Assembly: GCA_016873775.1 (NCBI GenBank)
Contig: VGWC01000013.1
Coordinates: 1-42,649 of the forward strand
Direction of reading: 5' to 3'
Length of the DNA: 42,649 nucleotides
Source of the DNA: Ignavibacteria bacterium
Lineage (GTDB): Bacteria; Bacteroidota; Ignavibacteria; UBA10030; F1-140-MAGs086
Shown here: piece after piece, positions 4,844 through 18,200 of the stretch
How positions within the stretch are numbered: position 1 is the first letter of the stretch
Layout of the letters: each line of letters begins with the position of its first letter
Notes under the pieces: generated by a model
The model's input: only the letters and a program-made list of their open reading frames with translations
The model's database searches: none
Told to the model about the DNA's origin: nothing
Translations under genes and position numbers: made by a program

Positions 4844-4915
4844 GCTGGCGTAGCTCAGTGGTGGAGCAGCGGTTTCGTAAACCGCAGGTCGTCGGTTCAA
4901 GTCCGACCGCCAGCT
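4844..4915 (+). tRNA. tRNA-Thr (anticodon CGU)
   Basis: A full cloverleaf of 72 bases. The acceptor GCTGGCG pairs with CGCCAGC, the D stem is GCTC/GAGC, the anticodon stem is GCGGT/ACCGC around loop TTCGTAA (anticodon CGT), and the T arm is GTCGG-TTCAAGT-CCGAC. The discriminator is T and the CCA end is not encoded. It reads ACG threonine codons. Confidence 0.96.
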
Positions 4916-4994
4916 CATCTTCTTATTTTATTCTTTCTTTTTTATTCACAATATTTCTTTCCGAACATCGTATAGAAATTATCAGTATCCGAGA

Positions 4995-7196
4995 ATGAAT
5001 ATAAACTTATTCGGTAAGAATAAATATACTTTCCTTTTTTTTGTATTCTTTTTTATCTTCGAAAAAAATTTTTCACAAGAATATTTTCCACAATTAAAAG
5101 GGCGACTACTTCCAACGCCGCTTTTTGACCAAGACAGAAAATTTACAAATGTTGGGAATATCGGTTTAACGGTAACAAACTATGGAGTTACTGGTCATGG
5201 ATTTTTATATTGGACAGAACGACAACCATCGTGCGAATATCCAAAAGGTTCGAGAACAGAGCATTTGTTTCTCGGAGGTTTTTGGATTGGAGCGCAAAAT
5301 AGAAGAACAGCGCAGATTTCTGTTTCGACAGGAGCAGTTGATGTTGGCTCCTTAAATAGATTGAACGAAGGATTTGAATTTACCAATGAGGCGGAAGATA
5401 GTTTGTTCGAACGTTCATCATTATCGGGCGCATATTTTGACACCAACGCGATAAGTCATCAGGATTTTGTTTGCGATTACAGCGACGTGAGAACTCGTTA
5501 TTCCAACGGCGATACGATTTTCAATCATATTCCGTTGAATGTCCGAGTTCATCAAGAAACGTATGCATGGAATTATTCGTTTGCAGATTTTTTTGTGATT
5601 CTTAATTACAAAATTTACAATGTTGGAACAGATACACTTGATTCTGTGTATGTAGGAATGTGGACAAATCCCGCTGTGCGCAACACGAATCTTTCCGGAG
5701 TTCCATCGGGTTCGGAATTTTATCGTCATCAAGGAAACGGTTTTGTTGATTCATTGCGAATGCATTATACATTTGATTTTGACGGACAACCGTACGGACC
5801 TCCAGCAGATTCATATTTCGGTGTGAAACTTTTAGGAACTGTTCCGTTTCCACTTTCTGCACGACATACGATTGATTCAACATTTTATCAGCAAGTAACG
5901 AACTTACAAGAACTTGATTCATCCGTTCAGTATAATGCGTGGAAATTCCGCAATAGCAGTGGAGATGGAGCATATTTCTATCCCACGGATGATGATAATG
6001 CAGATAGATATTTAAGCCGCTACAAACGCTTAAAACTTTCTCTTTCGCAAGATAAAATTTCACCGTTGCGATTGAGCGGAGGAAATTATACGAATTTGCT
6101 TTCCGTCGGTCCTTATGCGCAATTACTGCCGAATGATTCTCTCAATATTGTTTTCGCATTTGTGTGCGCCAAAAAATACGGAACATATCACGCGCGATTT
6201 GATTCACTTGAAAGCCGCGCAACGTTATATTCGAATGCTAGTTGGGCGCAAAAAGCATACGACGGTGAAGATATAAACGGAAATAATATCTTAGACGCAA
6301 ATGAAGATTTAAACAATAATGGAATCATTGACCGATATGTTCTTCCGCAGCCGCCGCGACAACCGAAAGTTCGTGTTGAAGTATCAAATCAAAATGCTGT
6401 CATATATTGGGATAAAGAAACTTCTGAAAATTCTATTGACCCGATTTCCAAACAAAAAGATTTTGAAGGATACAGAATTTATCGTTCGAATGCCGGCGCG
6501 GATTTTTTAAATCCGGAAGATTTTATACTTACGCTTTCACTCGTTGGAGAATTTGATAGAAACGATGACACCATTGCCTACAACACAGGGTTCAAACGAA
6601 TACTTCTTTCTGAAGCAAAAACATTTGCAGGAGATACGATAAAATATTGGTATCGTTTTCCTCCGGAAGATGCGCAAGATTCTGGACTTTCGCTTTTGAA
6701 TGGATGGCAATATCTCTACGGAATTTCAGCGTTTGATAGGGGAGATGAAGTTAACAATCTTCCTTCGTTGGAAAGTGGAAAAATATTATCTCGAATTATT
6801 CCGGGAACTCCGCCGACAAAAGAAAAGACAAAAGCAATTGGAGTGTATCCGAATCCGTATTATGTGAACGCATATTGGGATGGAACGGGAGAACGGTTGC
6901 GCAAATTGATGTTTTATAACCTTCCGTCATTTTGCACCATCAAAATTTATACTCTTTCCGGTGATGTCGTTTCTGAATTTGAACATAATGCGGATAAGAA
7001 TTTTGGGCAAACAATTCCATGGTATGCACGATTTGAGGGATTGCAATCAGATACTACTGCATTCGCAGGCGGAGAACATGCGTGGGATTTAGTTACAAAG
7101 TTTAATCAAGCGCTTGCAACAGGGTTATATTTATTTTCCGTTGAAGATAAAACTAACGGAGAAATTAGAACAGGTAAGTTTTTAATCATCAAATAA
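4995..7196 (+). CDS. large secreted protein with C-terminal Por/T9SS-like domain and calcium-loop motifs
   Basis: A 733-residue exported protein. A hydrophobic signal segment (TFLFFVFFFIFEKNFSQ) spans about residues 12-28. The body is beta-rich with no enzyme motif that I recognise. Residues 426-447 contain two consecutive calcium-loop-like stretches (DINGNNILDANE, DLNNNGIID), followed by a fibronectin-like region. The C-terminus begins GVYPNPYYVNAYW, continues TIKIYTLSGDVVSEF, and ends GLYLFSVEDKTNGEIRTGKF, a divergent sorting-type domain often seen in Ignavibacteria. It is first in the tight run of envelope genes, with 17 bases to the next. The start is the first ATG giving a signal peptide. 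Function unknown; likely cell-surface or secreted. Confidence 0.82.
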   Translation: MNINLFGKNKYTFLFFVFFFIFEKNFSQEYFPQLKGRLLPTPLFDQDRKFTNVGNIGLTVTNYGVTGHGFLYWTERQPSCEYPKGSRTEHLFLGGFWIGAQNRRTAQISVSTGAVDVGSLNRLNEGFEFTNEAEDSLFERSSLSGAYFDTNAISHQDFVCDYSDVRTRYSNGDTIFNHIPLNVRVHQETYAWNYSFADFFVILNYKIYNVGTDTLDSVYVGMWTNPAVRNTNLSGVPSGSEFYRHQGNGFVDSLRMHYTFDFDGQPYGPPADSYFGVKLLGTVPFPLSARHTIDSTFYQQVTNLQELDSSVQYNAWKFRNSSGDGAYFYPTDDDNADRYLSRYKRLKLSLSQDKISPLRLSGGNYTNLLSVGPYAQLLPNDSLNIVFAFVCAKKYGTYHARFDSLESRATLYSNASWAQKAYDGEDINGNNILDANEDLNNNGIIDRYVLPQPPRQPKVRVEVSNQNAVIYWDKETSENSIDPISKQKDFEGYRIYRSNAGADFLNPEDFILTLSLVGEFDRNDDTIAYNTGFKRILLSEAKTFAGDTIKYWYRFPPEDAQDSGLSLLNGWQYLYGISAFDRGDEVNNLPSLESGKILSRIIPGTPPTKEKTKAIGVYPNPYYVNAYWDGTGERLRKLMFYNLPSFCTIKIYTLSGDVVSEFEHNADKNFGQTIPWYARFEGLQSDTTAFAGGEHAWDLVTKFNQALATGLYLFSVEDKTNGEIRTGKFLIIK

Positions 7197-7213
7197 TTTA
7201 AGGATTCAATCGT

Positions 7214-9469
7214 ATGAACAAACTCTTTTTATTCATCTCATTTCTTTTCGTCTCATATTGTTCTTTGGCTGAAAACAGAGTTCAGGTTTCACTAAAGAAA
7301 AAATTTAATTTTCCTGAAGTATCCATTCACGACATACAGTTTGTTCATCGTGATTCGTTACGTATTGCAGATTCATTGCAAAACAGTAACCCATCACGAT
7401 GGACTCTGCAAGTAAGTCCGTATTTAGGAGATACAATCACTGTAACTGCGTTGTGCGTAATTCCTTCCAAAGTTATTACATACACTGCGGCGGGCTTTAC
7501 TATGCTTCTTGGTGATACATCTGGTACGGGAATTTCAAAACCATGGCACGGTTTGTTAGTGCGTATAAGTACAGCTGATTCTTCGCAGGCAATTCTTGAC
7601 GGATTTCTCAATGTTCAACGCGGAGACATTGTAAAAATGACGGGATTGATATCAGAATTTCCAACAAACAGTATGAACAGTACAACACAATTTCAACCGA
7701 TTCCGGGAATTCCTGTTGAAATAGTTGGAAGTGGCGATGTGCCTGATGAACATTTGATAACTGTTGATTCTATTTATGTTGGATTATTTCCGAATGGAAA
7801 AGTAAAATACAGTTCTGCTGAACAATTTGAAGGAGTACAAGTAAAAATTGTAAATACCATCGTTAATGCCATCGTGAACGCATCTCGTGGAACATTTGCC
7901 GTTGTTGATGCTTCAAGCAACAATATTTCCGAATACGATATTTCACATTTCTTTACTCTTGGGCACGGAAATCCGGTAATTCCCGGTGATTCTGTCTACA
8001 TTCAACAACTATGGCCGAAAATACAAGTAGGAACTTTGATTGATACTATTCGTGGAACTATTTCATCCGCTTCCGGTCAAGAAAACCAACGAGGATATAG
8101 AATTTGTCCTCTTCTTCCAGGCGATGTTGTTATTGGCGTACGAAAAATTCAAGTGTACTCTCATCGTCGTTATCCGGTAATCGTTACTCCCGACAGTAGC
8201 GCACGTATTACTTGTATTGTGAAAGAAGGAGATAACGCAATAAATTCTGTTCAATTATTGTACAGAACAAATAATAACGCGTTTCAATCACTTTCAATGG
8301 TAGCAACGAGCGGCGATACAATCTACGAAGCAACGATTCCGCAACTTGCAAATAATTCATACGTTAATTATTTTATCAAAGCAACGGATGATGAAAATTA
8401 TGTTACGATTCTTTCAAGTTCTGCATCCGATGGTTCGCAAAACGATACATCTAAAGGATTTTTCTTTTATACCGTTTTGAATCGGGCGTTATCTATTTAT
8501 GATGTTCAATATACTCCATTTCTCAACGGAAGAAGCGCATATCTTGGGGCAATTACCAGTGTTTCGGGTTACGTAACAGCAGATACTGCGTATATGATGC
8601 TTTCCCCGCGAACTACGGGAGGAACAAGCGCATGGTATTTGCAAGATAGTTCTTCTGCGTGGAATGGAATCTGGATAGTTGGTCCCGAATCGCTTCTTGC
8701 GCCGATGAAAAATAACGACAACGTAACCGTAACCGGCTCCATTCAGGAAAGCAATAACGTAACGCGAATTGCAAGCGTATCTTCCGTGACAATCAATTCG
8801 AACGGAAATCCGAAACGTATTCCGATAAAATTGAAAACAGGAAGATTTGGTCCATCTGTTGGAAATGGAAATCAAAATGCAGAACCGTATGAAGGCGTAT
8901 TAGTGAAATTCGATTCTGTTACTGTTACCAGTGTGAATCCAACGTTTGCGGATGTAACCGAGTATGAAGTTGATGACGGCACAGGTCCGCTACTCATCCG
9001 TCGCGACGGAAGAAACACTTATTCGAACATTCCCGGAGATGATACGTTGTACGGATATACAGTTTTACACGTTGGAAGTAAAATCGGTACACTTTTGGGT
9101 CTTGTATATTTCGGAAATAATCGTTATAAGTTAGCTCCTCGAACCAATTCCGATTTTATGAATGTTCAAGTTGGCGTTATTGAACGACAAGGAGAAAATA
9201 TCCCAAAAGAATTTTCACTCAAGCAAAATTATCCGAATCCGTTTAACCCTTCAACAAATTTTGAATTTTCGCTTTCCACTTCACAATTTGTAAAGTTGAA
9301 AATTTTCGATGTGCTTGGAAGAGAAATGGCAACCGTTGTCAATGAAAATTTAAATGCAGGAACGTACAACGTTCACTATGATGCATCGCAACTTCCGAGC
9401 GGTGTATATTTCTATCGTTTGTCCGCAGGAACATTTTCGGATGTGAAGAAAATGATAGTGCTTAAATAA
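7214..9469 (+). CDS. secreted protein with repeated OB-like modules and a type IX (Por) sorting domain
   Basis: A 751-residue protein with a clear signal peptide (MNKLFLFISFLFVSYCSLAE). Two similar regions, about residues 60-310 and 420-650, each carry segments of the type 'YEGV.VK...V', 'VDDGTG.L' and 'GD.V...G', resembling the OB-fold-like domains of secreted nuclease-associated proteins (DUF5689-like). No nuclease catalytic domain is visible. An Ig-like stretch (RYPVIVTPDSSARITCIVKE) separates them. The last 85 residues are a textbook sorting domain: FSLKQNYPNPFNPSTNFEFS, KLKIFDVLGREM, LPSGVYFYRLSAG, KKMIVLK. Type IX export to the surface is the likely fate. It lies in the same operon as a PorV-like protein, which fits. 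Confidence 0.87.
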   Translation: MNKLFLFISFLFVSYCSLAENRVQVSLKKKFNFPEVSIHDIQFVHRDSLRIADSLQNSNPSRWTLQVSPYLGDTITVTALCVIPSKVITYTAAGFTMLLGDTSGTGISKPWHGLLVRISTADSSQAILDGFLNVQRGDIVKMTGLISEFPTNSMNSTTQFQPIPGIPVEIVGSGDVPDEHLITVDSIYVGLFPNGKVKYSSAEQFEGVQVKIVNTIVNAIVNASRGTFAVVDASSNNISEYDISHFFTLGHGNPVIPGDSVYIQQLWPKIQVGTLIDTIRGTISSASGQENQRGYRICPLLPGDVVIGVRKIQVYSHRRYPVIVTPDSSARITCIVKEGDNAINSVQLLYRTNNNAFQSLSMVATSGDTIYEATIPQLANNSYVNYFIKATDDENYVTILSSSASDGSQNDTSKGFFFYTVLNRALSIYDVQYTPFLNGRSAYLGAITSVSGYVTADTAYMMLSPRTTGGTSAWYLQDSSSAWNGIWIVGPESLLAPMKNNDNVTVTGSIQESNNVTRIASVSSVTINSNGNPKRIPIKLKTGRFGPSVGNGNQNAEPYEGVLVKFDSVTVTSVNPTFADVTEYEVDDGTGPLLIRRDGRNTYSNIPGDDTLYGYTVLHVGSKIGTLLGLVYFGNNRYKLAPRTNSDFMNVQVGVIERQGENIPKEFSLKQNYPNPFNPSTNFEFSLSTSQFVKLKIFDVLGREMATVVNENLNAGTYNVHYDASQLPSGVYFYRLSAGTFSDVKKMIVLK

Positions 9470-9480
9470 ATTATCGAGTG

Positions 9481-11127
9481 ATGAGATATTTTCAAATACT
9501 CTTAATCGTTGTTTTCGCGATTGCGGGATGTAAAAAATCTCCAACAGATAGCGAAATGAAAAACAGTAAACCACAAGCATTTCTTTGGATATTTCCGAAT
9601 AATCCGGATTCACTTGCATTGGGAATTTCCAAACAACATATACATTGGTGGGGAGAGGACAAAGATGGATACGTTGTTGGTTTTCTCGTAGGAATAGGTA
9701 AAAGCGAAACTTCCGTAGAATGGATATTTAAAATTAGAAACGATTCCGTTATTTCTTTTCCGTTATTAACCGTACAAGATACATTTCTTGTTTTTGTAAA
9801 AGCCATTGACAATCATTTCCGCGAAAAAATAAATGATGGAACAAATATTGCGCTTGCTGCATCTCATCCTTTTATTGATTACGAAAACGACGGTGTATTC
9901 AACAATAACGATAGAACACTTCCAACGCTGCAAAATGCGTTAGGAGCAACAGCAAAGCAAAAGTTTCCTATCAAAAACACTCCGCCAACGGTGAAGTTTG
10001 AAATAAATTCATCCAATGTTACCGTTCAACCGTCGGAGACTTCATTCACCGTAGTAACATTCGCTTGGAGAGGAAACGATAATGATGGCGATAACACCAT
10101 CACGAAGTACGAAATTGCATTGAATGATACTGCAACAAATAATTGGGTTTCGATTGACAGTACGGTGAATATGATTACGTTGTTTGTACCGCGCGCTGTT
10201 TCTGACATTGCAACGGGTTCAGTAACGGCTGATGTTATGAAAGGTACTTATGGCAACACAAGGAAAATCGGAGAGGCACACGGATTGCGATTGAACGATA
10301 CGAATCGGATTTTTCTTCGCGTGAAAGATATTGCAGAAGATTACAGTCCAATCGTTTCGCTTCCAGATTCAGGATTTCTTTGGTATGTCAAAAAACCTAA
10401 AAGCAAATTGTTAGTCATTGAAGATTACGTTGCTTCTTCAGGACCAAATTCACCGGATTCCGTTCTTTTGTTTTACAAAAATATTTTTTCCCAACTTGCA
10501 GATTCGATAGGCGATTCGGTGCGCGTGTTTGATTTCCTCAGTTTAAGAAGAAACGACGGCGCTTTCATTCCGTTTCATTTAGACCCTGCATTGATACTCA
10601 CGTTACAACAGTTCAATTTTGTTTTTTGGTATGCGGGACAAGAGCCGAGTTGGAGCGTTGCATCAAATCCGTTGTTTCAATATGCCGTTGATCCGGCTAC
10701 CAATGGAAAAGTCTTATTTTCTACAGCGTTTCAATTTTCAATTGCAGACCCTCGTGGTTCTATTGTAAGTTTTGCACCGATTGAAGCAGTAAGTTTATCT
10801 GATGACAGCACAGCAACACGCGCGTATGCAGATACAACTGTTTCCAACATCAGTACAATATTGAATTTTCCTCCGTTGCAGTTCAAGCAAAATCCATCAA
10901 TTCATTCATTATTCTTTTATCGAAATTTATATCCTCGCTCTACTGCTACGCCAATTTATAAAATTGATTCCATTGTTTCGAAAACGCATAGAAAATTTTC
11001 TCCTACCGTAGGAGTCATTGACGCAAACAATCGTTTTGTTTTTATGGGAGTTCCTTTGCATTTATTGAATGGCAATGGAAATCTTCCGTCGTTTTTCAAC
11101 ACAGTATTTGGGAATATTTTTAAGTAA
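9481..11127 (+). CDS. surface lipoprotein with calcium-loop motif
   Basis: A lipoprotein of about 548 residues. The N-terminus MRYFQILLIVVFAIAGCKKS has a lipobox (AIAGC) with an acylation cysteine near residue 17. The ATG at 9481 is chosen over the GTG immediately before it. Residues 133-144 (DYENDGVFNNND, 9877-9912) fit an EF-hand/dockerin calcium loop. A fibronectin-like region follows, then from about residue 310 (SKLLVIEDYVASSG) an alpha/beta region with the style of a ThuA/glutamine-amidotransferase-like fold, but I see no catalytic triad. It ends three bases before the TonB-dependent receptor gene, so it may be a surface partner of that receptor, but the SusD fold is not evident. Function unknown. 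Confidence 0.78.
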   Translation: MRYFQILLIVVFAIAGCKKSPTDSEMKNSKPQAFLWIFPNNPDSLALGISKQHIHWWGEDKDGYVVGFLVGIGKSETSVEWIFKIRNDSVISFPLLTVQDTFLVFVKAIDNHFREKINDGTNIALAASHPFIDYENDGVFNNNDRTLPTLQNALGATAKQKFPIKNTPPTVKFEINSSNVTVQPSETSFTVVTFAWRGNDNDGDNTITKYEIALNDTATNNWVSIDSTVNMITLFVPRAVSDIATGSVTADVMKGTYGNTRKIGEAHGLRLNDTNRIFLRVKDIAEDYSPIVSLPDSGFLWYVKKPKSKLLVIEDYVASSGPNSPDSVLLFYKNIFSQLADSIGDSVRVFDFLSLRRNDGAFIPFHLDPALILTLQQFNFVFWYAGQEPSWSVASNPLFQYAVDPATNGKVLFSTAFQFSIADPRGSIVSFAPIEAVSLSDDSTATRAYADTTVSNISTILNFPPLQFKQNPSIHSLFFYRNLYPRSTATPIYKIDSIVSKTHRKFSPTVGVIDANNRFVFMGVPLHLLNGNGNLPSFFNTVFGNIFK

Positions 11128-11130
11128 AAA

Positions 11131-13998
11131 ATGATACGAATATTTTTTGTCGTCTTCACCCATTTCTGTTTCCAGTATTTTGTCTTCTCGCAAACGAAAG
11201 GAAATATTTCCGGAAAGATAACGGATAAAAAAACGAATGAGCCGCTTCCCAGCGTTAATGTGTTGATAAAAGGAACATATTACGGCGCATCATCGGATTT
11301 TGATGGGAACTATAAAATTCAAAACATCAATCCGGGAACGTATGTCATTACGGCAACACTTCTCGGGTATGCACAGAAAACATTTTCCGCAGTAAAAGTT
11401 GAAGAAGGTAAAACGACTGCACTTGATATCAAACTCGAAGAAACTTCACTAACGATTGATCAAGAAGTTGTTATCGTAGGAGAGAAGCCGTTATTTAATA
11501 TCGAAGAAACATCGAGTAGAAGAGCAACGGCAAGCGAGGATTTGAAAGCCGCCGCTATTCAGCGAGTGGAAGATGCAGTTGCATTGCAAGTTGGAGTTAC
11601 ACAAAGCGATAATGAAATTCATATTCGCGGAGGAAGAACGTATGAAAATGCGTATCTCATCAACGGCGTTTCTGTTCAAGACCCGCTCGCTGGCTCTGGA
11701 TTTGGATTACAACTTGGTTCCGACGCAATGAAAGAAGTGGAAGTTCTAACGGGCGGATATAACGCAGAGTACGGTCAAACAACTTCCGGCGTTGTCATTG
11801 TAAAAACAAAAGAAGGAACGGAAAATTATTCCGGAAGTATCAGTTATCGCAGAGACCATTTTGGGTTCAATGATAATTCACGTTCAAATTTCAATCAAGA
11901 TGTTATGTCAGCAAATATCAGCGGTCCGTTTGGTCCCTTACTTTTTTTTGCAACGTTTGATGGAAATTTTTCAGATGATTACACACGTTGGATGCAACAA
12001 ACGGAATATGGAAGACCCAGTGGATATTTTGTAAGCGCACCGCAAGGATTACATTCAACAATATTTTATGGAAATACCTTTGCTCCACGACAAAATAATC
12101 GTGTTTCGTGGCTCACGAATTTTTCTTTCAAGCCATCATCTACTGCGAAACTTTTGCTTTCATTAACACAATCTGCTACGATAAACCAAAACACAAAAAC
12201 AATTCAAGCAACGTTAGAACGCGTAGAGCCAAATCCTGGTTTTCAATATGTTTTTCGAAATATTCCCGATAGTGCCGCAACGTTTACTTCTGTCAATAAT
12301 TTTTACTCATTGCAGTTCACGAATACAATTAGTCCGAAAACATTTTACGAATTGCAATTCAGTTTATACACCGCACACGTACGCGGCGATAATAACGGTC
12401 AAGACAAAAATGGAGACGGAATTGTTGATTGGAATGATTATGCAGAGCCACAAGATTTTGTAACGTTTCCGATTGACACATTTCGCACTTCACCTGAAAC
12501 GTTGCGAGTAATTCCCGGCGATGGATTTTATGATATTGGAAGTCCTTCGATGTGGCGCGACCATTTCTTCCGCGAATATACACTGAAAGGCGACGTAACG
12601 CATCACTTTTCAGAAAACAATAAATTGAAAACCGGAATTGAATCGAAGTTTCAGGAAATTCAATACATTGATATTTCGCAACCGTGGATAAAAAAACTTG
12701 GTATTGACAACGATAAATATATTGTGTACCCAGCAATGGGTGCGATATATGTACAAAATAGTCTTTCTATTTCTGGTATGATTCTCAACAGCGGATTACG
12801 ATTAGATTATTGGTTTCCCGGAAAATATGTTGACGATGCTGCAGCAAGTTCGCAAAAAACGCTTGTTGCTCCGTACGTGCGTCAGCAGTATTTTAATGAG
12901 ACGTTTTCAGGATTCGATTTTAGTTGGAACAATGGTTTTCGTTCTGCGAACAGAAAATGGAAAGCGCGATTAAGTCCCCGACTTGGTATTTCGCATCCGA
13001 TATCAGATAATCAATCATTGTTTTTTTCATACGGACATTCATCCAAACTTCCGCGTCCACAATTTGTTTATTCAAAATTAAAAGCAACTTCTGCAAAATC
13101 TTCTTCGCAAACAATTGGAAATCCGAATTTAAATCCGGAAACAACAGTTTCGTACGAACTCGGCATTCGTTATCAAATTACCGAAAATGACGTGCTATCG
13201 GTTACAACGTATTACAAAGATATTTTCGATTACGTTTCGTCCGTTTCGTTTCAATTCCGCGGACCAAGAGCGAAAGGAAACTACAACACATATATCAATC
13301 AGGATTACGCGCGAAACCGCGGAGTAGAAATTGAATATATAAAACGGATAGGGACTTGGTTTCGAGGAACATTCTCAGGTTCGTATGCATTAAGCACGGG
13401 AAAAAGTTCGAGCGCCACGGAACAAATTTTTGGCACAGAAGAAACGCGGAGAGAAACCGTTACTGAAAATTTTATGAATTGGGACCGTCCGTTGCAATTT
13501 TCGGCACACTTAAATTTCACCGTTCAAAAAAACAAACCTCTGTTTGAAATGAAAGGAATACTGGAAGATATCAATGTATTCACTAAAATATTTTTTCAAT
13601 CGGGAAAGCGTTATTCACCGTGGATTTTTGCAGGGATAGATTCTATCAATTATGAACCATCAAGAAATATTTATCGAGATGAACCGAAAAATTATTTAAG
13701 CGGCATTGGCGAATACTGGTTTTATATTGATATGAATATTGAAAAAGCAATAGAGATGGGTTTTGGTAAATTAGTACTTGCTTTGGAAATACAAAACGTA
13801 CTGAACAATTCTAATTCTCAAATAATCAATCCCGTTACAGGACGTGCATACGAATACGGCGATGATGTCCCACTTTCCAATTCGTGGAATGACCCTCGAT
13901 GGCCGGATTTGACAAAACCGATTTCACCGTTTCCATTCAATCCTGCGCGATATCTGAATCCACGAACATTTCGACTTGCTATCTCGTGGAGATTTTAA
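11131..13998 (+). CDS. TonB-dependent outer-membrane receptor with carboxypeptidase-regulatory-like domain
   Basis: A 955-residue outer-membrane receptor. It has a signal peptide (residues 1-21), a carboxypeptidase D regulatory-like domain (GNISGKITDKKTNEPLPSVN to about residue 110), a plug domain (IHIRGGRTYENAYLINGVSV; EVEVLTGGYNAEYGQTTSGVV), and a long beta-barrel whose last strand is FRLAISWRF, ending in aromatic phenylalanine. This is the SusC-type architecture common in Bacteroidota. A perfect EF-hand-like loop (DKNGDGIVDWND, 12403-12438) lies in a predicted extracellular loop. The substrate is unknown; no TonB box is obvious. Gaps of 3 bases before and 2 bases after show strong operon membership. 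Confidence 0.92.
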   Translation: MIRIFFVVFTHFCFQYFVFSQTKGNISGKITDKKTNEPLPSVNVLIKGTYYGASSDFDGNYKIQNINPGTYVITATLLGYAQKTFSAVKVEEGKTTALDIKLEETSLTIDQEVVIVGEKPLFNIEETSSRRATASEDLKAAAIQRVEDAVALQVGVTQSDNEIHIRGGRTYENAYLINGVSVQDPLAGSGFGLQLGSDAMKEVEVLTGGYNAEYGQTTSGVVIVKTKEGTENYSGSISYRRDHFGFNDNSRSNFNQDVMSANISGPFGPLLFFATFDGNFSDDYTRWMQQTEYGRPSGYFVSAPQGLHSTIFYGNTFAPRQNNRVSWLTNFSFKPSSTAKLLLSLTQSATINQNTKTIQATLERVEPNPGFQYVFRNIPDSAATFTSVNNFYSLQFTNTISPKTFYELQFSLYTAHVRGDNNGQDKNGDGIVDWNDYAEPQDFVTFPIDTFRTSPETLRVIPGDGFYDIGSPSMWRDHFFREYTLKGDVTHHFSENNKLKTGIESKFQEIQYIDISQPWIKKLGIDNDKYIVYPAMGAIYVQNSLSISGMILNSGLRLDYWFPGKYVDDAAASSQKTLVAPYVRQQYFNETFSGFDFSWNNGFRSANRKWKARLSPRLGISHPISDNQSLFFSYGHSSKLPRPQFVYSKLKATSAKSSSQTIGNPNLNPETTVSYELGIRYQITENDVLSVTTYYKDIFDYVSSVSFQFRGPRAKGNYNTYINQDYARNRGVEIEYIKRIGTWFRGTFSGSYALSTGKSSSATEQIFGTEETRRETVTENFMNWDRPLQFSAHLNFTVQKNKPLFEMKGILEDINVFTKIFFQSGKRYSPWIFAGIDSINYEPSRNIYRDEPKNYLSGIGEYWFYIDMNIEKAIEMGFGKLVLALEIQNVLNNSNSQIINPVTGRAYEYGDDVPLSNSWNDPRWPDLTKPISPFPFNPARYLNPRTFRLAISWRF

Positions 13999-14000
13999 AC

Positions 14001-15050
14001 GTGAAAACTATGGTGAATAAAATTCTGGTGCATCAATTTTTTACAAAAATATTTTTTTGCGTCGCTTTCTTTTTTTCAAGTGTTCAAACATTACATTCGC
14101 AACTCGTTCCGAATCTTGGTGGACAACGAGCAGGAATTTCTGTATATCAATTTTTGAAAATCGGTGCGGGAGGAAGAGGTACGGCAATGGGAGAATCGTT
14201 CACTGCAGTTGTCAATGACGCATCTGCACTTTATTGGAATCCAGCTGCAATTACAAATTTTGAGTATAATCAAATTATTGTTTCTCACACGCAATGGTTT
14301 GTTGATATTCAGCACGAATTTCTTGGAGGCGTGTATCATCTCTCTGCTGCTGATGCAATCGGAGTTTCCTTCACTTCGCTTCATTTGGACGATATGCTGC
14401 AAACAACAGAAACGCAACCATTCGGAACTGGAAGATATTTTACTTTCGGCGATATTGCAATAGCAGGAACGTATGCAAGGAAAATGACTGAGCAATTTTC
14501 CTTTGGTGTCTCTTTGAAATATGTTGAAGAAACGTTGGATATGCTTAAGATGCGAAGTATGCTTGTTGATGTCGGAACATATTATTATACCGGAATCGGA
14601 ACAAGCAGATTTGCAGTAGTGGTTACGAATTTTGGAAACAATGCAACTCCAACAGGAACAGTAGAACTTCTTGATGGAAAAAAAATACAATCATTTCAGT
14701 CATTTTCGCCGCCAACGCTTTTCAAGATGGGATTTGCATTTGAACCATATCAAAGCGAATTTCAACGCATAACAACATCGGCGCAAATCAATCATCCCAA
14801 TGATAATGCAGAAAATTTGCGCGTCGGTATTGAATACGAATGGAATAAAACATTATTTCTACGCGGAGGCATAAAACGTACGTTTGGTCAAGAACTCTTC
14901 GGCGAAGATGAAACGAGCGCAGAATATTTTTCCCTCGGAGCAGGTTTTTATATCCCTCTTTCGTTCACCGATATAAATGTTGACTATTCATTCGCGCATT
15001 TCCAACGATTAGGAGGAGCGCATCGCATTTCTTTAAGTATTGCACAGTAA
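14001..15050 (+). CDS. PorV/PorQ-like outer-membrane protein
   Basis: About 349 residues with a signal peptide ending near FFSSVQTLHSQ. The segment SVYQFLKIGAGGRGTAMGES followed by NDASALYWNPAAI is the hallmark of the PorV/PorQ (FadL-like barrel) family, whose PorV member shuttles type IX cargo at the outer membrane. The remainder is alternating beta strands ending in RISLSIAQ. A GTG at 14001 is preferred because GGAG (13988-13991) lies nine bases upstream; the ATG at 14010 is the alternative. The frame stays open further upstream, inside the receptor gene, but that N-terminus is not convincing. A PorV-like gene next to cargo-like genes suggests dedicated secretion or display of these products. 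A conserved family protein of unknown specific role is the fallback. Confidence 0.84.
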   Translation: MKTMVNKILVHQFFTKIFFCVAFFFSSVQTLHSQLVPNLGGQRAGISVYQFLKIGAGGRGTAMGESFTAVVNDASALYWNPAAITNFEYNQIIVSHTQWFVDIQHEFLGGVYHLSAADAIGVSFTSLHLDDMLQTTETQPFGTGRYFTFGDIAIAGTYARKMTEQFSFGVSLKYVEETLDMLKMRSMLVDVGTYYYTGIGTSRFAVVVTNFGNNATPTGTVELLDGKKIQSFQSFSPPTLFKMGFAFEPYQSEFQRITTSAQINHPNDNAENLRVGIEYEWNKTLFLRGGIKRTFGQELFGEDETSAEYFSLGAGFYIPLSFTDINVDYSFAHFQRLGGAHRISLSIAQ

Positions 15051-15059
15051 CTATTTCCA

Positions 15060-16166
15060 ATGAAGAATACGTTCATTAATCGTCATATAATTTTTGTCGT
15101 TTCAATTTTCGTTGCTTTGATAATACTTACGAGTTGCGAAAAAAAATTCGATTTTTCAACGCTTCCGCTTGACGAAAATATTTCTGTCAATGAAACATCG
15201 TATGTGGAATTAGCACCGCCATTTTCCGGTTTTCAAAAAATTTCTTCGATTGCAATTGGAGGCGACCAAATGTTATATGTCGCTGATTACAATTCAAATA
15301 AAATTTTTCAACTTAACGTTGCCGGAATTGTTTTAGGTGAACTCTATTTCAATGATTCTATTGCATTTCATCCATCGGCAATTGTACAGGATTCGCGTCT
15401 CGATTTGCTTTTCTGTGGAGAAACGAAAGTACAAAACGATACGATTGCGGCAATTTTCAGAATACAACTTTCTAAATTTGGTTTAAAACTTTCCGAAGTT
15501 ACTACATCGAACATAAAAACAGTTTGGAAAGAACGCGCTAAGCCTGCTCGACGATTTAAAGGAATTATTGTTGTATCCGATAATCAATACATTGTCGCAC
15601 GTGTTGGTCCCGATAACAGTAGTCCGATAGATCCTGATTCGCGCATTATTTGGTTTCAGAAAAATGATGCAAAAATAAAAGAGATTTCGGATTTGCAAAC
15701 CGGAGTTGGTTCGAGCATAACATTCATCAATAAACCAACGGGAATAATCGGATTTCCATTTTCAAAAAATTTTATTGTTACACAAACACTTGAAGGAGTA
15801 ATTTACGGAGCAGTACTTATGAAATATTCATCTCTTGAAGAACTTTGGATTCCCGGTTTTGACCCTTCGAATCCGTTACAGCGTGTTGATTTTATTCGAC
15901 CGAATCAATTTACAAACGCACGCGGAGGAGCGTACGACGCACATCGCGGTGATGTATTTATCGTAAATGCAACTTCGGATACAAATTCGTACGCAGTTTT
16001 TAAGTTTGATTCGAAAGCAAGGTTCAAAAATGAATCCATCCGACCGAATGATGTTGTTCCAATGCTTACTTCTCCTTCGGGAGCAGCGTTCTATGATAGA
16101 GTTTTGTACGTTGCTCAAGACTCGAGAATATTTCGATTCAAACTTTCCACTGATTTCATTCGATAA
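15060..16166 (+). CDS. lipoprotein with NHL-like beta-propeller
   Basis: A 368-residue lipoprotein. The signal peptide ends with lipobox LTSC (cysteine near residue 26). The mature part looks like a six-bladed NHL/SMP-30-type beta-propeller: FQKISSIAIGGDQMLYVADY, then SNKIFQLN, and later ARGGAYDAHRGDVFIVNATS and SGAAFYDRVLYVAQDSRIFR. Such propellers bind ligands or partners rather than having an obvious fixed activity. It is the last gene of the compact envelope run, nine bases after the PorV-like gene. A 120-base gap to the next gene suggests that gene is transcribed independently. Substrate and role unknown. Confidence 0.78.
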   Translation: MKNTFINRHIIFVVSIFVALIILTSCEKKFDFSTLPLDENISVNETSYVELAPPFSGFQKISSIAIGGDQMLYVADYNSNKIFQLNVAGIVLGELYFNDSIAFHPSAIVQDSRLDLLFCGETKVQNDTIAAIFRIQLSKFGLKLSEVTTSNIKTVWKERAKPARRFKGIIVVSDNQYIVARVGPDNSSPIDPDSRIIWFQKNDAKIKEISDLQTGVGSSITFINKPTGIIGFPFSKNFIVTQTLEGVIYGAVLMKYSSLEELWIPGFDPSNPLQRVDFIRPNQFTNARGGAYDAHRGDVFIVNATSDTNSYAVFKFDSKARFKNESIRPNDVVPMLTSPSGAAFYDRVLYVAQDSRIFRFKLSTDFIR

Positions 16167-16286: not shown

Positions 16287-18200
16287 ATGAGATACACGTT
16301 TATTTTATTCGTCGCAATTTTACTTTCGTCCACCGTTGTGTTTTCTAAAAAAGAACATAGAAACACGTCTCCATTTTCTCGCGCAATTCTTCCTGATGTC
16401 ATAAGTCCTGATACCAGTGCACCAGATACGTGGGGCTATACTTGGGTACGAAGCACAGAGCCCGGAGGTCCGGTTTATAACTGGCTTGATTCTACAGATG
16501 GATGGCAACGAGTAAATGGTTTATTGGATGATAATGCCGTTGGATTTTTCAACTTAGGTTTTACATTTCATTACTATTGGTATGATGTTACAAGATTGCA
16601 AATCGGTTCAAACGGATGGATTGGTTTTGAACAAACTATCGGAAATCTTGCTGCTGCTTTTACACAATTTCCTAACTCAACTCCTCCCAATGATGTCATA
16701 GCACCACTTGGCGCAGATTATGATTTTAGCCCTAATGTTATTGGTCCTTATAATTCAAGAGTATATTTTTGGACGAACAATGTTGATTCTGCAGTTATCA
16801 GTTGGGTAGATGCAATTGAATGGTTTCAAACACCTCCCAATCCCCGTCCTACATATTCTTTTCAGGTGATATTAACGAAAGCTGATAGTTCTCTCACATT
16901 TCAATATGGACAACATACAGGAAATGGAGCATTCGCATCCGAAAGCAATATAACAATGGGAATTGAAAATGTAACGGGAACTATTGGATTAAGTTACTAT
17001 TTTGCTAGCGGTTCAATTGACCCAACACGCTATGAAACTGGAACTGCAATTAGAATTAAAAAAACAATTGATACTGGTTTGCAAATTGTTGATGCTGGAG
17101 TTATTGGAGGATTTAATAATTTGAACGGTGCGGTTTTTCTTCAAGCGAATGTCAATAATACTATTTCTGCGTATGTAAAAAATTTTGGAACTGCAAATTT
17201 AACCAATGTACGCGTACGTCATACTATTTCCCGAGGCGTAACAACATTACTTCGCGATACGGTGTTTATAGATACGCTTTCTCCGGGAACAACAAAAGTC
17301 ATCACGTTTCCAAAGCCGTTTTTGCCAACACAAGTTGCAGTTCATTCCGGACAATTTCGTATTGAAGCAGCGGGAGATGTTCTTGCTTCTAATAACGTAA
17401 AGACAACAGAAATGGATGTTATCAATGCAATTCCTGGAACTCCAATCGTATTAGCATACGATGATAATGTTCTTGATGGAACTGGTCGTTCATGGGGAAG
17501 TTCTGGTGGTTTTGGAAATGAATTTGAGGTCCCCGTTCCCGTAAAAATTGAATCTGCGTATGTTAGAATTCAAACAGTAACATCCGGACAAACACTTACT
17601 ATTTATGTCGTAGATGATGACGGTTCTCAAGGTTCTCCTGGAACAGTACTTGATTCGGTAATTATTGCATCTCCAATTTCCGGAATCAACAAAGCGTATT
17701 TTGGTTCTAAAAATATTGTTGTCGAAAGTGGTAAATTTTACATTGGTGAAACCGGTCAGCATACTTATGCAATGGATCAAACGCAGCCACTTTCCAACCG
17801 TGGATGGGAAATCACATCGGGATGGGGAGTAAACCGTTTTGGAGCAACAGAAGATGTTATGGTGCGCGCAGTAGTATCAGTTGTCTCCAGCGATGTTCGC
17901 AATTATATGCAATATCTTCCCAAAGGTTATGAAGTTGAACAAAACTATCCTAATCCGTTTAATCCAAGTACTACAATTCGCGTAACACTTGCCAAGAAAT
18001 CGAATATCAAAGTAGTAGTGTACGATATACTTGGAAATGAAATCAAAACGCTTTTTAACGGTAATGCCCAAGTTGGCGAAACAAAAATTATTTGGGATGG
18101 AACAAATCGTTACGGTACATCTGTTCATTCAGGAGTATTTTTCTATCGAGTACAAGGAGATAATTTTTCCGAAACAAAAAAGATGTTATTATTGAAGTAA
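16287..18200 (+). CDS. secreted multi-domain protein with type IX (Por) sorting domain
   Basis: A 637-residue exported protein with a signal peptide (RYTFILFVAILLSSTVVFS). It has an N-terminal beta-sandwich (about 40-260), a CARDB/Ig-like domain (about 270-390, VDAGVIGGFNNLNGAV), a jelly-roll-like segment (about 390-550), and a C-terminal sorting domain: YEVEQNYPNPFNPSTTIRVT, IKVVVYDILGNEI, GVFFYRVQGDNFSETKKM. AAAGGAG at 16271-16277, nine bases before the ATG, is an excellent ribosome binding site, and TATAAT at 16248-16253 could be a -10 element. A hairpin terminator follows, so it is likely a single-gene unit. No enzymatic motif is seen; adhesion or matrix roles are guesses. Confidence 0.88.
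   Translation: MRYTFILFVAILLSSTVVFSKKEHRNTSPFSRAILPDVISPDTSAPDTWGYTWVRSTEPGGPVYNWLDSTDGWQRVNGLLDDNAVGFFNLGFTFHYYWYDVTRLQIGSNGWIGFEQTIGNLAAAFTQFPNSTPPNDVIAPLGADYDFSPNVIGPYNSRVYFWTNNVDSAVISWVDAIEWFQTPPNPRPTYSFQVILTKADSSLTFQYGQHTGNGAFASESNITMGIENVTGTIGLSYYFASGSIDPTRYETGTAIRIKKTIDTGLQIVDAGVIGGFNNLNGAVFLQANVNNTISAYVKNFGTANLTNVRVRHTISRGVTTLLRDTVFIDTLSPGTTKVITFPKPFLPTQVAVHSGQFRIEAAGDVLASNNVKTTEMDVINAIPGTPIVLAYDDNVLDGTGRSWGSSGGFGNEFEVPVPVKIESAYVRIQTVTSGQTLTIYVVDDDGSQGSPGTVLDSVIIASPISGINKAYFGSKNIVVESGKFYIGETGQHTYAMDQTQPLSNRGWEITSGWGVNRFGATEDVMVRAVVSVVSSDVRNYMQYLPKGYEVEQNYPNPFNPSTTIRVTLAKKSNIKVVVYDILGNEIKTLFNGNAQVGETKIIWDGTNRYGTSVHSGVFFYRVQGDNFSETKKMLLLK

Follow-up and report, generated by a model that had tools for sequence, protein, structure and literature searches.

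Does a compact run of six genes for different kinds of exported protein encode a single machine, and if so, of what kind? This question is raised by a 42,649-nucleotide stretch of DNA, here called the window, from an Ignavibacteria bacterium of the phylum Bacteroidota (GenBank assembly GCA_016873775.1, contig VGWC01000013.1), in which six co-directional open reading frames on the + strand, denoted A to F, occupy positions 4995-16166 with intergenic gaps of 17, 11, 3, 2 and 9 bases. An earlier description made from the letters alone (hereafter, the sequence-only reading) had proposed that these genes work as one unit, and open reading frame calling reproduced its six one-strand frames and their spacing. 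We consider, with a probability of about one half, that A, B, C, D, E and F encode one complex of the outer membrane and cell surface, in which the barrel protein E anchors the secreted protein A beside the importer D. Comparison among genomes gives strong support to a single working unit, through the conserved order of the genes, their all-or-none occurrence and their retention after dispersal. They almost certainly make up one machine in which type IX secretion components are combined with a TonB-driven transporter, and a surface assembly or uptake machine is a plausible description of that unit.

Order and joint occurrence of the six genes

The sequence-only reading had named conservation limited to single genes as a result that would speak against a unit. 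Instead, the exact order A-B-C-D-E-F was found in 83 non-redundant loci (near-duplicates removed), with median gaps of -1, 8 and 1 base before D, E and F, and nearly all of the neighbourhoods fetched from relatives show the six genes in this order on one strand. Judging from this spacing and these overlaps, co-transcription of the six genes is likely; scans for promoters and terminators gave sites no more numerous than in shuffles. Gene C is near single-copy, being found in 63 of the 80 genomes searched as relatives, nearly all of which belong to the taxonomic order of the window. A profile of A, searched over 395 Bacteroidota genomes with two candidates scored per genome, gave strong matches (E-value at most ~1e-57) in 110 of them.

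The sequence-only reading had named Ignavibacteria and other Bacteroidota as the genomes in which to look for the set. Ignavibacteria do carry it, but its reach is wider and takes in Kryptonia and further classes, including Rhodothermus. The neighbourhoods that were read place the whole ordered set in other families of the class and in other classes, and one scan located it on contigs named as Ignavibacterium sp., Candidatus Kryptoniota and, in many cases, Ignavibacteriales; others, Thermokryptus among them, show part of the set where a contig ends. The carrier G082 is a Rhodothermus, whose ActC matches chain C of structure 6f0k, the alternative complex III of R. marinus, with near identity along 466 residues. 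Within this one genus, the set is absent from G086 and present in G082, G127, G134 and G227, which offers a natural comparison.

FastTree trees of A, D and E largely follow taxonomy, with the same few exceptions in each, and this agreement indicates mostly vertical inheritance of the whole block. Two genomes of 1.7 Mb (G045 and G025, loci L084 and L085) have kept all six genes, as divergent sequences that fall outside the class clade in the tree of A. Altered arrangements were seen at two loci: a transposase-like gene stands upstream of C in place of A and B (L062:6141-9562), and a 946-residue frame matches A together with the C-terminal part of C (L172:7666-10503). Rearrangement or an assembly artefact is a possible cause.

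The members of the set are also present or absent together. Over 132 genomes, A and F are both found in 71 and both missing from 60, with one exception at a contig break: F is present in exactly the 42 of 80 genomes that have A, and among a further 52 genomes 30 have F and 29 of these have A, the contig of the exception (G419) ending inside C. Likewise, among 61 genomes C and D occur in the 24 with A and in no others, apart from one extra weak C-like match (G150), which adjoins a paralogue of D. In families f8 and f21 (G240, G263, G274, G290, G382 and G428), the block is scattered over several places and A, C, D and F are nevertheless all kept, as is B in all four of the dispersed-set genomes whose A neighbourhood was read.

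Each of these protein types is common in the genomes concerned, and paralogues of D and E are numerous there, which might suggest that the six genes are mere neighbours of common surface types that work separately. We regard this as very improbable. The all-or-none pattern contradicts it, and so do the six-gene order in 83 loci, the retention after dispersal and the flanks, which are not conserved: the AtuA pair, the cargo gene starting at 16287 and the DUF1573 gene of the window are not shared across the fetched relatives. This cargo (16287-18200, 120 bases after F, with a type A tail of 36 bits) belongs to the type IX secretion system (T9SS); at roughly one locus in four, F is likewise followed by a T9SS cargo. 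On the other side of the set, a tRNA-Thr (CGT) gene at 4844-4916 lies directly upstream of gene A.

The six proteins and their nearest relatives

The layout of the set is given in Table 1. Gene C has an alternative start, GTG at 9478, and gene E may start at GTG 14001 (gap 2) or at ATG 14010 (gap 11). Family searches found no enzyme domain in any of the six products, in agreement with the sequence-only reading, which had seen no enzyme here.

Table 1. The six genes of the set in the window, with the domain content assigned to their products.
Gene	Positions	Strand	Length (aa)	Product
A	4995..7196	+	733	Secreted protein; putative beta-supersandwich-like N-terminus, fibronectin-III-like domain, PorZ-type T9SS C-terminal domain (~residues 610-733)
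B	7214..9469	+	751	Secreted protein; OB-fold-like and immunoglobulin (Ig)/CBM56-like regions, generic type A T9SS sorting domain
C	9481..11127	+	548	Lipoprotein; two Ig/fibronectin-III (FN3)-like domains, putative Rossmann-like alpha/beta C-terminal domain
D	11131..13998	+	955	TonB-dependent transporter; N-terminal carboxypeptidase-regulatory domain
E	14001..15050	+	349	Outer-membrane barrel of the PorV/PorQ family; neither canonical PorV nor canonical PorQ
F	15060..16166	+	368	NHL-type beta-propeller lipoprotein

Por-type C-termini had been assigned to both secreted proteins. This stands for B, whose sorting domain exceeds the cut-offs of TIGR04183 (44.4 bits; cut-off 23) and PF18962 (42.8; 27), whereas that of A stays below the former (15.1 bits) and its orthologues have tails that match PorZ. 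The PorZ model NF052228 is matched by 37 of 52 A orthologues, with a best E-value of 1.1e-6, and the match is confined to the C-terminal domain (positions 665-757 of 757). Gene A has no Pfam family match, and a search of solved structures with its profile gave no match. With its AlphaFold model (predicted local distance difference test score, pLDDT, 87.2), Foldseek returned as top matches the N-terminal regions of GH94/GH15/GH116-type enzymes, together with PorZ and PorU. The match to these glycoside hydrolase regions spans ~400 columns (E-value 1e-6 to 1e-4; TM ~0.25 over the whole chain) and leaves out the catalytic barrel, and our reading of it is that the N-terminal domain of A would be a beta-supersandwich; beyond this region, the model has an FN3-like domain and then a tail that matches the PorZ and PorU structures. 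B has weak matches to CBM_56 and to the N-terminal region of NucH/ExeM, and OB-fold and DUF5689 matches are found in its orthologues. From their sequences, A and B are predicted to be T9SS cargos whose secretion depends on that system.

C and F are lipoproteins, as had been proposed, with the lipoboxes IAGC and LTSC, respectively. The cysteine of C (C17) is invariant, and 83 of 84 orthologues of C and 81 of 84 of F carry a lipobox-like motif, as against at most 6 of 84 in each other member. The residues after the cysteine are often rich in K, E and D, and presumably resemble the surface-lipoprotein signal of Bacteroidota. For C, the whole-chain fold search (AlphaFold model, pLDDT 89.6) gave FN3-type matches only, corresponding to an FN3-pair fold, and its C-terminal domain appears Rossmann-like as read from secondary structure only. 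For F, nothing rose above a family cut-off in the family searches; the matches of its profile among solved structures are the NHL propellers of Pizza, TRIM71 and PknD, which bears out the propeller assigned to it earlier. Five loci of family f3 (L059, L063, L065, L068 and L080) are without gene B and have a C of 870-930 residues. The long C was considered as a carrier of B domains and none is present; near its C-terminus, in the two loci scanned (L063 and L068), a Ycf48/BNR-type beta-propeller is inserted instead.

Gene D has the plug and beta-barrel domains of a TonB-dependent transporter, all above cut-off: CarboxypepD_reg_2 PF13715 at 72 bits, Plug PF07715 at 39.3 (23.9) and TonB_dep_Rec PF00593 at 65.2 (27). 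Its mean column identity over the taxonomic order is 60%. The name "SusC-like" given to it earlier is not supported as a statement of membership, as D scores 89.1 bits against the SusC/RagA model TIGR04056 with a cut-off of 368, and no SusD is encoded beside it; D is better described as a carboxypeptidase-regulatory TonB-dependent transporter, and membership of the SusCD systems was rejected on these two grounds. Neither C nor F has a SusD-family match.

The carboxypeptidase-regulatory transporter with its surface lipoproteins is nonetheless the feature that the set has in common with SusCD and SusCDE systems, and a dedicated polysaccharide-type uptake system like SusCDE, in which the lipoproteins C and F would be the counterparts of SusE and SusF, would also fit the weak SusE-type match of C (PF14292, E-value 4e-4, below cut-off), the resemblance of the N-terminal domain of A to regions of carbohydrate-active enzymes and the weak CBM56 match of B. 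However, besides the missing SusD and the low score of D, the set has no glycoside hydrolase, and its two T9SS cargos and its PorV-family barrel have no counterpart in SusCD systems. We therefore hold this explanation to be quite improbable.

The earlier label "PorV-like" for E is right as to family, and E is neither the PorV nor the PorQ of its genome. It reaches 200.4 bits against the PorV/PorQ family model NF033709 (cut-off 90) and falls short of both canonical PorV (NF033710, 76; cut-off 250) and PorQ (NF033711, 91; cut-off 220); the nearest solved structure is PorV of F. johnsoniae (6h3i_F, E-value 1.2e-16). Elsewhere in the window genome are encoded a PorU of 948 bits (cut-off 420), followed by a near-canonical PorV (243; cut-off 250), and PorQ-like (215; 220) and PorZ-like (255.6; 260) proteins. 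Therefore, E is an extra paralogue. No protein of the cluster reaches the PorZ equivalog cut-off of 260 bits or the PorU sortase cut-off of 420 bits. SprA, too, lies elsewhere in the window genome. It is found in 78 of the 80 genomes, among them every one of the 42 that carry the set, and this nesting within T9SS-positive genomes means that the set is not the T9SS itself. In G154 (C7:260525-263974), the SprA match lies within an open frame of 6523 residues, as against the usual 2200-2800.

The tail of A and the family of E, together with a propeller protein, F, that recalls PorZ, might suggest that E and A form a second PorQ-PorZ pair, which would act as an alternative or accessory attachment complex of the T9SS and have the modification or anchoring of cargo as its task. 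We think this improbable. The same genomes have PorZ, PorQ and PorU, the N-terminal domain of A seems to be a beta-supersandwich and not the propellers of PorZ, the PorQUZ proteins come without a TonB-dependent transporter, and an R. marinus-like genome has PorZ and PorQ but not the set. A replacement of PorQ and PorZ by the set was rejected, as both are present.

Related cassettes exist in the window genome (C15, L040:3082-11397; C35, L039:6632-13640; C33, L041:3657-11098). Each has, in this order, a TonB-dependent transporter, a T9SS cargo and a PorV/PorQ-like gene, and C15 has a C-like lipoprotein upstream as well. The A-like cargos of C15 and C33, each encoded directly upstream of the PorV/PorQ-family gene, match the PorZ C-terminal domain with E-values of 2.9e-6 and 2.9e-10. 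In contrast to the six-gene set, the orders and members of these cassettes differ, C15 is without orthologues of B and F, and none is full. In a further place (C5, L045:9239-12720), the gene for a 523-residue T9SS cargo stands directly upstream of two tandem PorV-like genes, an arrangement as in PorU-PorV. Many early-branching genomes have an expanded complement of PorV/PorQ-family genes (among 28 genomes, as many as 13 matches at an E-value of 1e-20); the four genomes of families f26, f31 and f35 have 0-2 and families f9, f11, f12 and f15 have 2, and the six-gene set is also absent there.

Proposed anchoring and transport at the cell surface

In P. gingivalis, PorZ retains its tail and is anchored by PorQ, while PorU is anchored by PorV (PMC5562754; PMC10202324), and type B cargo is held by cognate PorP/SprF barrels (PMC12618676; PMC9143113). 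By analogy with these two precedents, it is most likely that E anchors A. The likeness to the PorQ-PorZ pair lies in the tail of A, which matches that of PorZ, itself a tail-retaining cargo on a PorV/PorQ-family barrel; unlike PorZ, A has a body that is no propeller protein, and the set adds a TonB-dependent transporter and lipoproteins. The PorP/SprF systems (SprB-SprF, PG1035-PorP) resemble the set in that cargo and dedicated FadL-type barrel are often encoded together and the barrel anchors the cargo, but the barrel of the set is of the PorV/PorQ family and the tail of A has the type A (PorZ-like) and not the type B fold.

The mechanism that we propose begins with A and B, which would reach the surface through the T9SS. 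Given its generic type A tail, B probably travels on PorV and is cut by PorU, whereas A would keep its PorZ-type tail and be held at the surface by E. Anchoring by E would put A beside the transporter D, in a stable D-E complex of the outer membrane with B delivered alongside, and the lipoproteins C and F would complete an extracellular cap. D, driven by TonB, would then most likely import what A, B, C and F have captured, a polymer or large ligand.

Several points weigh against this mechanism. The PorZ-tail matches of A are weak (E-values of 1e-2 to 1e-6), and the window's own A has none at an E-value of 0.01. Most uptake loci encode a permease or a degradative enzyme, and the set comes with neither; nor is a nutrient receptor usually conserved so strongly, and in single copy, across such diverse taxa. 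Moreover, the set is absent from some close relatives, namely parts of family f7 and the Rhodothermus genome G086, and this means that it is not essential everywhere. Even conservation, a single copy and the absence of enzymes together favour a constant substrate, or else a structural task, over a variable nutrient.

The main rival to import is export or surface assembly. The TonB-dependent transporter Oar of M. xanthus is reported to be required for PopC secretion (PMC6434023), and D might by analogy be Oar-like, helping to export proteins or polymers or to construct a surface layer, in which case A, B, C and F would serve as chaperones or structural components. Such a role fits a TonB-dependent transporter that, like D, has a carboxypeptidase-regulatory domain and no SusD partner; it also fits the absence of catabolic genes from the cluster and the near single-copy, order-wide conservation. 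However, A and B have an ordinary T9SS route, so that no second exporter would be needed. We regard an Oar-like role as a serious though rather unlikely explanation, and continue to favour the anchoring of A beside an importer.

A role related to the Bacteroidota extension of the beta-barrel assembly machinery (BAM) was also considered, since in that extension a FadL-type barrel and surface lipoproteins, BamG and BamH, make up an extracellular canopy (PMC12611786; PMC12578637). It was rejected: E matches the PorV/PorQ family and not BamG, the set includes no BamA or BamD, and its distribution differs in not being phylum-universal.

Significance for Bacteroidota envelopes

A literature search of open-access papers found no published description of the six-gene set. 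Tentatively, and with less confidence than in the mechanism itself, we suggest that it represents a new class of envelope complex, namely an outer-membrane machine powered through TonB, with an extracellular half that the T9SS would deliver and a PorV/PorQ-family barrel of its own would lock in place. Such complexes would occur in Ignavibacteria, Kryptonia, Rhodothermus and other early-branching Bacteroidota, and the six-gene set would be the best-preserved member of a wider group of PorV/PorQ-like anchors with PorZ-type cargo.

Gene A is carried by about a quarter of the sampled Bacteroidota (110 of 395 genomes), nearly all of them in classes on which hardly any experimental work exists, and even genomes of 1.7 Mb have retained the set. 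If the proposal is true, a function would be given to proteins that no family library names, and the T9SS would be seen to build multi-protein transport complexes, beyond delivering enzymes and adhesins. Why PorZ keeps its tail is a stated open question (PMC10202324), and further pairs of cargo and barrel make it testable. Finally, PorV/PorQ-like barrels would have diversified into dedicated anchors, as PorP/SprF did.

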